Positions 903 through 3,996 of a DNA stretch of 64,000 nt are shown here, in pieces. The first letter of the stretch is position 1. Each line of letters opens with the position of its first letter. The DNA comes from Nucisporomicrobium flavum (GTDB taxonomy: Bacteria; Actinomycetota; Actinomycetes; Mycobacteriales; Micromonosporaceae), in NCBI RefSeq assembly GCF_016464385.1, contig NZ_JADMLH010000019.1, positions 1 to 64,000 of the forward strand. The letters run 5' to 3'. The position numbers and the translations under genes are program-made. The notes under the pieces were generated by a model, which saw only the letters and a list, made by a program, of their open reading frames with translations, had not been told where the DNA came from and did not search any database.

Positions 903-2161
903 CGTGCGTTCTCCTTTCCGGCGGTGACGCTCTCGCGCGAGGCGGGCAGCGTCAGGCGCACCTCGGTGCCGTCCCCCGGTGAACTGCGGATCACGGCCTT
1001 GCCGCCGTGCCGCTGCATGCGCCCGATGATCGAACCACGGACGCCGTGCCGGGTCTCGGCCACGGCGGTGAGGTCGAAGCCGGCGCCGCGGTCGCGGACG
1101 AAGACGCTGAGCTCCTCGTCCTCCACCTCGGCGTAGAGCGAGACGGTCTGGACGCCCGCGTGCCGGGCCGCGTTGACCAGGGCTTCCCGGGCGGCCGCGA
1201 CGAGGGCGGCGACCCGTTCATCACACTGCGTGTCGCCCACGACGACGGTCTCGACGGAGATCGCGTACGTGTCCTCGACCTCGGCGGCGGCCTGCTCCAG
1301 CGCCGCCCCGAACCGCTCGGTCGGCGACGCGGCCGGCTTGTAGAGCCAGTTGCGCAGCGAGCGCTCCTGCCCCCGGGCGAGCCGCTGGACCTCCTTGATG
1401 TCGGTCGAGTTGCGCTGGATGAGGGCGAGCGTGTGCAGCACCTGGTCGTGGATCATGGCGGCCACCTCGGCGCGCTCCTGCTCGCGGATGCGGCCCTCGC
1501 GCTCGTTGCGCAGCTGGCTGAACGTCCGCCAGAGCAGCGGAGCCACCACCACGCCGACGCCGAGCAGGCCGACGAGGGCGAAAATCACCCCGTTGAGCAC
1601 GATGACGAGGTTGTTCTTGGGGCCGTACACGGCGAAGACGCCGATGACGCCGACCGCGACCAGGACGCCGCCGCCGATGAAGCGGAACAGGAAGGAGCGG
1701 CGGTCGCTCTCCGCGACGACGGCGGCGAGCCAGGGCGCCTGGTTGTCGCCCCAGTGGCCGCGCCGGGTGGGGTCGGACTGGTGCCAGATCACGCCGGCGC
1801 CCACCGCAATGACGGCGACCAGCCAGCCGGCGGTGCCGGCCACGCCCTTGTCGTCGCCGAACAGCAGTCCCTCGAGCAGGATCACGCCGAGGCCGATCGC
1901 GCCGAACGGCAGCAGGAGCACCAGGTCGCGGCGGGGTTTCGGCTCTCCGGTGGGCACCTGCTGCGGCAGCACCGCCCAGAACACGGCATAGAGCAGAAGA
2001 CCAAGACCGTTGAAGCCCAGGAGTACGACCAGAGCGACGCGCACCGCGGTCACGGGAATGCTGAGGTGACGCGCGATCCCGGAAGCGACCCCGGCGATGA
2101 CACGGTGGTCGCGCGGCCGGTACAGGCGGCGCGTCGGCGAGGGTGCTGCGGTGGCGGTGAT
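899..2161 (-). CDS. PspC-domain sensor histidine kinase (LiaS/NarX-like)
   Basis: This membrane histidine kinase is the cognate partner of the adjacent regulator. Reading from complement 2161 it has 420 residues: a PspC domain (about residues 10-65, DHRVIAGVASGIARHL then a membrane helix), several more membrane helices, a HisKA_3-type dimerisation helix with the phospho-accepting His in MIHDQVLHTL, and an HATPase with NAARHA and DRGAGFD boxes. The first ATG/GTG in frame is the GTG at 2053, but it would remove the first half of the PspC domain. The frame stays open upstream to an ATC at 2161-2159, which lies 6 nt after a perfect AGGAGG (2173-2168). I therefore propose the longer protein with a rare ATC start. 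The fallback starts are the in-frame CTG twelve codons downstream or GTG 2053. Confidence 0.9.
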   Translation of the reverse strand: MTATAAPSPTRRLYRPRDHRVIAGVASGIARHLSIPVTAVRVALVVLLGFNGLGLLLYAVFWAVLPQQVPTGEPKPRRDLVLLLPFGAIGLGVILLEGLLFGDDKGVAGTAGWLVAVIAVGAGVIWHQSDPTRRGHWGDNQAPWLAAVVAESDRRSFLFRFIGGGVLVAVGVIGVFAVYGPKNNLVIVLNGVIFALVGLLGVGVVVAPLLWRTFSQLRNEREGRIREQERAEVAAMIHDQVLHTLALIQRNSTDIKEVQRLARGQERSLRNWLYKPAASPTERFGAALEQAAAEVEDTYAISVETVVVGDTQCDERVAALVAAAREALVNAARHAGVQTVSLYAEVEDEELSVFVRDRGAGFDLTAVAETRHGVRGSIIGRMQRHGGKAVIRSSPGDGTEVRLTLPASRESVTAGKENAR

Positions 2162-2167
2162 CGCTGT

Positions 2168-2173
2168 CCTCCT
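2168..2173 (-). promoter_or_regulatory. Shine-Dalgarno AGGAGG that points to an ATC start
   Basis: A perfect AGGAGG on the minus strand lies 6 nt before the ATC at 2161-2159. No ATG, GTG or TTG occurs at the right distance in the kinase frame. This site is the main sequence argument for the ATC start of the PspC kinase. Confidence 0.6.
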
Positions 2174-2331
2174 TCGTCACGCCGTACTCGTGGACCGGTT
2201 CGATCGTCACACGCCGCGGTGAGCGGGGGCTACGGGGAATGACCCCCAGGTATCCGTGTCCCCGATCTCAGGGTGGCATCAGGGTCGGCGCCTGAGGCGG
2301 GCCGGGTGCCCGTACCGCCAGTATCGAAGCC

Positions 2332-3996
2332 ATGACCGACGAAGCTGCCCAGTCCCGCGGAGCTGCCGGGTCGTCGCAGGACGTTCCGGCACCTTCGGCC
2401 GTCCCGCCGGCGCCCCCGCAGGCGCCGGCCTCGGGCGAGGTCCCGCCGGCGTACGAGCCGCCCGCACCGGGCGCTCCGCCGGCCGACGACCCGCCGCCGC
2501 CCCCGCCGGGCGCCACCACACCCCCATCCGAAACCCCCTCGGGCAGCACGCCGCCCCCCGCTGGAAGCATGCCGCCTCCGCCGGGCAGCCCGCCGCCGTG
2601 GTTCGGCGCGCCCGACGGGCCCACGTTCTCCCGCGACAAGCTCATCCGCCCGGCCCGCGGCCGGTACATCGCCGGCGTCTGCGGCGCGATCGGCCGCGCC
2701 ACCAACACCGACCCGGTGCTCTGGCGGGTGCTGCTGGCCGTCCTCGGCTTCTTCGGCGGCGTCGGGGTGCTGATCTACCTCGCCGGGTGGCTGCTGATCC
2801 CCGCCGAGGGTGACACGGCCTCCCCGATCGAGTCCCTGCTCGGCCGGGGCCGCTCGACCATGGCGCCGCTGTCCGTGGTGCTGCTCGGTGCCGCCGCGGC
2901 CCTGACGTTCGCCTTCATCGTCCGCGACGGCTTCCGCGCGACGCTGCTCGCCGCCGCGGTGCTGGTCGTCGGCGCGCTGGCCCTCAAGAAGTCGAACCGG
3001 GCCGGCGGTCCCGTGACCGCTGGGCCCGCTCCGGCCGACCCGTGGGCCGCCACCGCGACGTTTCCCGCTGCAGCACCGGCGCAGCCGGCCACGACGGCGC
3101 CGGCCCCCGCGGAGGCGCCGGCTGAGGAGCCCGCGACCGCGTTCACCGAGACGGCCGCCGCAGAACCGGCCGGCGAACCGGTGACCGCCCCGCTGCCGCC
3201 GATGCCCCCCATGCCCCCGATGCCGCCCTTCCCGACAAACACGTCCGCGCCACTGCCGCCGATTCCGCCGTCGTTCGCCCGGCCGACCGAGGGCTACCGG
3301 CCGCCGTTCGCGCCGCACGGGCCGTGGGCACAGGGGGCCGCGCAGCCGCCGTACGCTCCTCCGGCACCGCCGTCACCACCCAAGGCGCCGAAGCCGCCCC
3401 GCGAGCGTTCCAAGCTGGGCCGCATCACGTTCTCCCTGCTGGTGGTCGTGATGGGCGTCCTTGCGCTGTTCGACTCCGCCGGCGCGGACGTTCCGGTGTC
3501 GGGGTACTTCGCCGCCGCGCTGGCCACCATCGCGCTCGGGCTGGTCGTCGGCGCGTGGTTCGGCCGGGCCCGCGGGCTCATCTTCCTGGCCGTGCTCGCG
3601 ACCTTCGGGCTGGCCGTCTCCAGCGGCGTCGAGCGCTTCGGCGGCGAGTTCGCCAACAGCTCGTACCGGCCGCAGAGCCTCGCCGCCGTGGCCGACCGCT
3701 ACGACTTCTCGGTGGGCAACGCGACGCTGGACCTGCGCTCGGTCAATTTCGCCGGGCACGACCAGGCGGTCACCGTGGCGATGAAGTTCGGGCAGGTCAG
3801 GGTGCTCCTGCCGGCGAACGTCGACACCACGACCTCGCTGACCATGAACGACGGGCGGGCGCTGCTGTACGGCCGCGAGCTGACCGGCAACCTGAACGTG
3901 CAGGCGGTCTCCGATCTCGGCCCCGACGGCGAGGGCGGCGGCACGCTACGGCTGACCGTCGAGATGAACACGGGCAACGTGGAGGTGACCCGATGA
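2332..3996 (+). CDS. PspC-domain membrane protein with LiaF-like C-terminus
   Basis: This 554-residue protein is probably a membrane modulator of the divergent kinase/regulator pair. Residues 1-95 are a Pro/Ala/Gly-rich cytoplasmic segment. Residues about 103-160 form a PspC domain (RGRYIAGVCGAIGRATNTDP, then a helix). Further membrane helices and a second Pro-rich linker (about 220-345) follow, with more helices about 360-440. The last 100 residues look like the beta-rich LiaF/YvqF C-terminal domain (FSVGNATLDLRSV through MNTGNVEV). LiaF proteins hold LiaS-type kinases inactive until the envelope is stressed; that role here is inferred from domain content and the divergent arrangement. Its stop overlaps the next start (ATGA). 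Confidence 0.88.
   Translation: MTDEAAQSRGAAGSSQDVPAPSAVPPAPPQAPASGEVPPAYEPPAPGAPPADDPPPPPPGATTPPSETPSGSTPPPAGSMPPPPGSPPPWFGAPDGPTFSRDKLIRPARGRYIAGVCGAIGRATNTDPVLWRVLLAVLGFFGGVGVLIYLAGWLLIPAEGDTASPIESLLGRGRSTMAPLSVVLLGAAAALTFAFIVRDGFRATLLAAAVLVVGALALKKSNRAGGPVTAGPAPADPWAATATFPAAAPAQPATTAPAPAEAPAEEPATAFTETAAAEPAGEPVTAPLPPMPPMPPMPPFPTNTSAPLPPIPPSFARPTEGYRPPFAPHGPWAQGAAQPPYAPPAPPSPPKAPKPPRERSKLGRITFSLLVVVMGVLALFDSAGADVPVSGYFAAALATIALGLVVGAWFGRARGLIFLAVLATFGLAVSSGVERFGGEFANSSYRPQSLAAVADRYDFSVGNATLDLRSVNFAGHDQAVTVAMKFGQVRVLLPANVDTTTSLTMNDGRALLYGRELTGNLNVQAVSDLGPDGEGGGTLRLTVEMNTGNVEVTR

Follow-up and report, generated by a model that had tools for sequence, protein, structure and literature searches.

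The window, by which is meant here the whole stretch of 64,000 nucleotides from Nucisporomicrobium flavum that was analyzed, carries on its minus strand a gene for a histidine kinase with an N-terminal PspC domain (899-2161; 420 codons, counted from an ATC to the stop). On the same strand lies a LuxR-type response regulator (237-902; PF00072 and PF00196), whose ATG overlaps the stop of the kinase gene in the sequence ATGA. On the plus strand, a divergent gene (2332-3996) encodes a membrane protein in which Pfam finds a PspC domain (63.9 bits) and a LiaF-like C-terminal part, the latter (LiaF-like_C) at 26.5 bits and below its cut-off of 29. Within the long frame of the kinase, HATPase_c (PF02518) is matched at 34.5 bits and HATPase_c_2 is matched as well. 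The Pfam family HisKA_3 gives no match at an E value of 0.001; the pair H243-D244 is invariant across 14 aligned orthologues.

The locus thus holds a kinase with N-terminal PspC and HATPase_c, a LuxR-type regulator, and an adjacent PspC/LiaF-like membrane protein, and by this gene layout it resembles three-component envelope-stress loci of the PspC type, EsrISR and LiaFSR being examples. In EsrISR of Corynebacterium glutamicum, as described in an excerpt of PMC9239133, PspC is the N-terminal input of a histidine kinase within a three-component system, and the window kinase has the same architecture. The same excerpt counts LiaFSR as a three-component system. The layout is shared with EsrISR and with LiaFSR of Bacillus subtilis; a role of the window locus in envelope stress is putative. 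By adjacency, the response regulator would be the cognate partner of the kinase, and the divergent protein is likely to be the third component. The divergent intergenic region contains two copies of CAGGGT (2269-2285, plus strand, beginning at 2269 and 2280). This hexamer or its complement occurs in all 131 of the full 260-nt stretches upstream of orthologues, 2.1 times each on average; among coding stretches of equal length, it occurs in 27 of 402. The CAGGGT/ACCCTG repeats are therefore a good candidate for the operator of the response regulator.

The kinase gene and the whole of its start region lie on the minus strand. Read 5' to 3', that strand presents TGA, CGA, AGGAGG, ACAGCG, ATC, and then ACC GCC ACC GCA GCA CCC TCG CCG ACG CGC CGC CTG. 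Here, AGGAGG (2173-2168) is a Shine-Dalgarno (SD) sequence standing 6 nt (ACAGCG) upstream of the ATC (2161-2159), which the reading of the sequence, together with the DNA of orthologues, points to as the start codon (AUC in the message). The original prediction, which proposed that translation begins at this ATC, had the coordinates and the spacing of both elements right. It had also described the 36 codons that precede the first GTG in frame as free of ATG, GTG and TTG, and so they are; the GTG at 2053 lies exactly 36 codons downstream of ATC, and no in-frame ATG, GTG or TTG is found in the window sequence between the upstream TGA and that GTG. The TGA that closes the frame had been counted as four codons above ATC. 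It is in fact six codons above (2179-2177), with five sense codons between. The CTG said to follow twelve codons after ATC is found at 2125-2123.

The original prediction argued from the PspC domain, which is complete only if translation begins upstream of the GTG. With the upstream residues included, Pfam aligns PspC (PF04024) to residues 16-72 (1961-2131, minus strand) at 72.5 bits, covering positions 1-57 of a profile of 58. A protein begun at GTG 2053, the first standard in-frame start (2051-2053, minus strand), would keep only the second half of the domain, positions 28-57 of 58, at 23.3 bits and under the cut-off of 25; this start is rejected. Against the GTG, the argument is sound. It cannot, of course, decide between ATC and CTG, as the match to the domain starts two residues before the leucine that the CTG encodes.

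Further upstream, a -10-like hexamer GACGAT within GTGTGACGATCG (2203-2208, minus strand) lies 41 nt from ATC. It may act as a promoter -10, fitting TAnnnT at A2 and T6 only. The leader shows no unusual RNA fold in the window (z 0.45); for the orthologue L023 the value is z 0.73, which shows little, as the folded stretch began inside the SD. The idea of a leader hairpin around the SD and the start was dropped on the folding of these two sequences, and, since no unusual fold was found, it is the codon alone that hints at regulation. Initiation at the GTG at 2180, which is out of frame, followed by a frameshift was also entertained and rejected; in the DNA read, such a codon is not common to the relatives. 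As a separate observation, the minus strand at 2220-2250 reads GGGGGTCATTCCCCGTAG. Of 135 orthologues, 122 carry CCCCGTAG/CCCCGTGG ahead of the start, often within an imperfect GGGG...CCCC palindrome.

The DNA of orthologues bears most directly on the choice of start. All 100 genomes searched gave some match to the kinase, and a strong one was obtained from each of the 60 that belong to the genus of the window, its own among them. The start region was read in 136 distinct Micromonosporaceae sequences and in outgroups, after 35 copies identical over 120 nt had been merged. Seven same-family genomes (genus code g31) gave only distant matches and contributed no sequence. Seven of 40 regions had no anchor and were left out, one of these (L183) being read by eye; L068, also left out for want of an anchor, reads ATG-ACG-ATC-ACC. 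The anchors of L017 and L127 were set by hand, as was the assignment to the GTG class of L043 and L046, which are SD-ATC by rule, and of L085, which is unclassed by rule.

Among the 136 sequences, ATC stands behind an SD in 104, GTG takes its place in 21, and ATG in 5 (Dactylosporangium and allies); GTG-ATC is read in 5 and ATG-ATC in 1. The 32 sequences outside the SD-ATC class thus have ATG or GTG either at the homologous codon or directly before it. Of thirteen extra same-family regions, one (L308) was unreadable, and the 12 readable ones were made up of 4 duplicates of sequences in the count and 8 new ones. These 8 and the divergent L183 were read by eye, and all nine have SD-ATC. No codon other than ATC, GTG or ATG was found at the start place in the family sequences read, and in none of them does ATC stand there without an SD. 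SD-ATC is kept in Micromonospora, Salinispora, Plantactinospora, Asanoa and Spirilliplanes, and in Actinoplanes in the wide sense (s.l.), which here means records of Micromonosporaceae named Actinoplanes, Paractinoplanes, Amorphoplanes, Couchioplanes, Winogradskya, Pseudosporangium, Symbioplanes or Jidongwangia. Lineages that lack ATC have ATG or GTG at the homologous codon, GTG in one clade and ATG in Dactylosporangium. This is the comparison that the original prediction had proposed, and it answers in favor of ATC.

AGGAGG, GGAGG, AGGAG or GGGAG lies 4-7 nt before ATC in 103 of the 104 ATC-class orthologues, a count that is partly built in, as the class label itself demanded a looser SD-like match. 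In any phase of the same genes, one of these four motifs is followed 4-7 nt on by ATC at 87 places in 161,318 bases. This chance rate amounts to about 0.03 per 60 nt, to be set against 104 of 136 at one homologous place, where the 136 are related sequences and not independent ones. The codons that follow ATC vary, the commonest codon at positions 3-11 of an alignment of 134 sequences being found in at most 64 of them. In that alignment the ATC itself falls at position 2 in 91 sequences and at position 1 in 15, a split made by the aligner. The spacing between ATC and the PspC leucine, a whole number of codons, is no evidence, the ATC having been sought in frame only. Nor does it tell anything that the codon is ATC rather than ATT, because the other isoleucine codons of the gene are mostly ATC too. 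Sixteen other ATC columns have a median exact ATC share of 89% (range 2 to 134 of 134). With ATC so strictly kept in other columns, the argument rests on the position of the codon and on the pattern of its replacement.

What, then, of the frame above ATC? In 41 Actinoplanes s.l. sequences, the spacing between the -10-like motif and ATC is found in each of the three phases (8, 23 and 10 sequences). Because the phase changes, the leader above ATC is not coding in the kinase frame. Further, 18 of the 104 ATC-class sequences have no in-frame ATG, GTG or TTG between the upstream stop and the PspC leucine, the codon of that leucine excluded. These are 12 Actinoplanes s.l., 5 Micromonospora and 1 Asanoa, and they include the window and its nearest relative. 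A non-standard codon therefore opens the frame in 18 sequences, with an SD at a working distance and at a position conserved in 104 of 136.

Three other accounts of the start deserve weighing against this record. That translation might begin at the CTG (2123-2125, minus strand), with ATC untranslated or a chance triplet, is not absurd in itself; weak initiation at CTG is known, and a protein begun there would lose only two aligned residues of PspC. The original prediction saw in it the main rival. Among the 106 sequences then labelled as ATC class, the codon at this place is CTG in 32, CTC in 65, TTG in 5, CTT in 3 and ATC in 1, and the window, inspected by eye, has no SD at the right distance from its CTG. 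The persistence of SD-ATC in 104 of 136 orthologues would be unexpected if the CTG were the start. This account is accordingly held to be highly improbable. A sequencing or assembly error is easily imagined, as a single substitution would turn ATC into ATG, and the original prediction named a read error among the things that would overturn it. The identical ATC is, however, present in the closest relative (G054, 98% identical in protein) and in 102 further distinct family sequences. It is therefore not a read error, and the chance that it is one can be treated as negligible.

The more serious of these accounts would have each species use whatever standard codon lies upstream or nearby, with ATC a conserved internal isoleucine. 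Candidates are indeed at hand: the GTG in the GTGTGACGATC motif, a GTG immediately ahead of the SD in Micromonospora, and a GTG just after ATC. In-frame NTG codons occur 11 codons before ATC in 16 of the 106 sequences, 5 or 6 codons before it in 25, and 3 or 4 codons after it in 33. It is because so many species have a standard in-frame start near ATC that only 18 sequences are strictly free of rivals. Yet no nearby in-frame NTG position is common to the whole family, and those 18 sequences do without any. The NTG at -11 proves, where inspected, to be the GTG of the -10-like motif, whose distance to ATC shifts phase. The GTG before the SD is GCG, CTG, TCG, CCG or ACG in other Micromonospora and in Plantactinospora. 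The GTG at +3 would stand about 15 nt from the SD, beyond the usual spacing. Such a patchwork of starts is considered improbable. That ATC is the start codon of the kinase gene is supported, it being the orthologues that decide, and by this comparison the ATC start is real and inherited across about a hundred related species.

The kinase start appears to be built like that of infC, the gene for initiation factor IF3. In the genome of the window, infC begins GGAGGCCCC-ATC-AGC, and of 30 genomes of the order, counting this one, 29 have ATC as the start of infC and one has ATT (27 ATC and the ATT were matched by script too; the two ATC that the script missed were read by eye). The comparison with infC that the original prediction drew is thus literally right. 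This, in turn, means that initiation at AUC behind an SD would be ordinary practice for one essential gene here. The context TGAGGAGGCCCC-ATC-AGC, with a stop TGA directly above, is shared by 17 of the 18 Actinoplanes s.l. genomes. Both genes place an SD within a few nucleotides of an AUN start against which IF3 discriminates. Where infC has AGGAGG-CCCC-ATC-AGC, 23 of the 104 kinase orthologues share the AGGAGG exactly 4 nt before ATC. The likeness has its limits, as infC starts with ATC or ATT while the kinase starts with GTG or ATG in some lineages. Further, infC encodes IF3 itself, which closes a feedback loop, whereas no role in translation is known for the kinase.

Elsewhere in the window genome, the pattern AGGAGGN{3,6}ATCASC occurs at 14 places, against 3 for a control with the pattern reversed. 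At four of these places, a stop lies close upstream and no NTG occurs between it and ATC or directly after ATC: infC, the PspC kinase, an alpha/beta-hydrolase-like open reading frame (L263), and a frame of 118 codons (L257). A fifth (L254) has an ATG two codons after ATC, and the remaining nine have upstream in-frame NTG codons or a frame of only 4 codons. L263 (1512-2360, plus strand; G000:C28:6095-6943) is an open reading frame of 283 codons that begins AGGAGG-CTGCC-ATC-ACC, is open upstream for only 3 codons and lacks NTG in its first 60; its name comes from reading its sequence. One relative, L268 (71% identical), has a frame without NTG up to residue 46, and each of the other 28 relatives compared has at least one. 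L263 is possibly a third ATC-started gene of the genome. L257 (G000:C7:187439-187456, plus strand; AGGAGG-ACGCCG-ATC-AGC) is open upstream for 12 codons and lacks NTG before codon 56. This frame may be due to chance and no gene at all.

The orthologues that start with GTG present a different design. In all 21, the GTG lies exactly 6 nt after GACGAT, the script having chosen the GTG with the better -10 where two were close. In the ATC class, by contrast, the gap from the -10-like motif to ATC is at least 24 nt in the 103 of 104 sequences where a loose form of it was found, the largest gaps possibly being chance matches. For Streptomyces lividans, an excerpt of PMC8079986 gives leaderless promoters a -10 of TAnnnT at a mean spacing of 6.3 nt, with A2 in 94.5% and T6 in 97.4%, and leaderless transcripts that start only with ATG (67.8%) or GTG (32.2%). 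An extract of PMC7682106 puts the share of coding sequences with an assigned leaderless transcript at about 14% in Actinoplanes sp. SE50/110. The arrangement GACGAT-6 nt-GTG in 21 of 21 therefore makes the GTG class look leaderless, and these orthologues most likely are; they share with the leaderless GUG messages of actinobacteria a hexamer with A2 and T6 and the spacing of 6 nt. The window gene differs from these in its SD and in a leader of probably about 35 nt, and a leader would likewise belong to the ATC class as a whole.

Outside the family, GTG lies 6 nt after an A2/T6 hexamer in L194, L195, L201, L203, L204 and L219 (two other families), these six being the regions inspected by eye and no systematic count. 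In L071 and L073, from two further families, ATC stands behind an SD. The nearest upstream NTG in L071 is a TTG 8 codons away, and L073 has none within 30 codons of the PspC leucine. On a quick tree (LG+G4, with long outgroup branches, and with L214 and L221 too short to be included), the start state changes 6 times over 134 family rows, two of these changes being between GTG and ATC in Actinoplanes s.l. Three Actinoplanes sequences with leader, SD and ATC (L042, L051 and L056) are placed inside the GTG clade, which suggests that ATC came back. The simplest reading would be one loss of the leader with a change from ATC to GTG, followed by one return. The only two independent contrasts both run as expected, leaderless GTG going with the loss of ATC, and, two being too few, no test of significance attaches to them.

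Given the observed anatomy of the start, its conservation in the family, the GTG or ATG that replaces it at the same codon and the lack of conservation of rival starts, a mechanism may be proposed. The strong SD, 6 nt upstream, would hold the ribosome on AUC. The initiator fMet-tRNA would read AUC with a mismatch at the third position, as it presumably does for infC in the same cells, so that methionine would be inserted. A strong SD joined to a poor codon should give low synthesis of the kinase, rising when IF3 is scarce or busy, and the product would be the sensor of an EsrISR/LiaFSR-like envelope-stress locus. An excerpt of PMC4611024 has IF3 discriminating against AUC and against starts other than AUG, GUG and UUG. 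Synthesis would be low and yet adjustable precisely because IF3 rejects AUC. That AUC keeps kinase output low is the modest part of this proposal; that IF3 tunes this output is the bolder part. The kinase is very probably translated from AUC; a low and IF3-responsive output and the sensing of envelope stress are the proposed parts of this reading.

The AUC start may, of course, be real and yet neutral, having arisen once in the ancestor of the family and persisting by drift as adequate behind a strong SD. The few blocks that ATC forms on the tree agree with this, and so does its replacement by ATG or GTG in other lineages. AUC is evidently not essential, because six sequences have GTG or ATG before ATC and Dactylosporangium has plain ATG. 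Drift sits less well with the fact that a single substitution leads from ATC to ATG and yet most of the family keeps ATC, and with the return of ATC suggested by the three Actinoplanes within the GTG clade. Neutrality is a possibility to be taken seriously, although not one to be expected. The six sequences with a standard codon directly before ATC (L125, L126, L154, L165, L214 and L009) leave only 2-3 nt between that codon and the SD.

To return to an AUC that serves to limit output, its use may perhaps be to keep the sensor scarce. A further step is conceivable. IF3 inhibits leaderless translation as well, according to an extract of the review PMC9031893, which notes conflicting data. As both AUC starts and leaderless messages are reported to be disfavored by IF3, low-level translation sensitive to IF3 may itself be the conserved trait. 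It would be reached by two start designs, apparently an SD-led AUC in most of the Micromonosporaceae examined and a leaderless GUG in one Actinoplanes clade and, it would seem, in other families of the order. Synthesis of the kinase would then report the state of translation initiation to envelope-stress signaling. This is a tentative idea and, as matters stand, an unlikely one. If true, a kinase that reports on IF3 would run parallel to IF3's own AUC-started gene.

An AUC start is of a known kind, being found in infC and in rnhC of Listeria, where an excerpt of PMC13068326 reports ATC initiation as experimentally confirmed. Listeria monocytogenes rnhC resembles the kinase gene in having a fixed ATC start outside infC; it differs in encoding an enzyme and in belonging to another phylum. 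Control of a regulator through a start other than ATG has its precedent in the GTG of lacI, as presented in an extract of PMC11445065. Altered start codons of Listeria rsbW appear, in excerpt, as a further example of such control. Among the matches listed from the open-access literature, none concerns AUC initiation of a PspC kinase or within Micromonosporaceae, which is weak evidence of absence. Deinococcus deserti is said to have ATC starts, pcnB of E. coli reportedly starts with AUU, and initiation data on 64 codons reportedly exist for E. coli. The well-conserved case of a sensor kinase would be new.

Common gene finders accept ATG, GTG and TTG. A conserved AUC start will therefore be misread or truncated wherever it is present, and truncation at the GTG would cost this kinase half of its sensing domain. 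Natural GTG-ATC and ATG-ATC variants are useful for comparing AUC with NTG starts. The natural swaps between an SD-led AUC and an apparently leaderless GUG amount to an evolutionary experiment on the choice of start site. Finally, a signaling gene that carries the odd start of infC in most members of a family offers a test of whether starts discriminated against by IF3 serve as control beyond IF3 itself.
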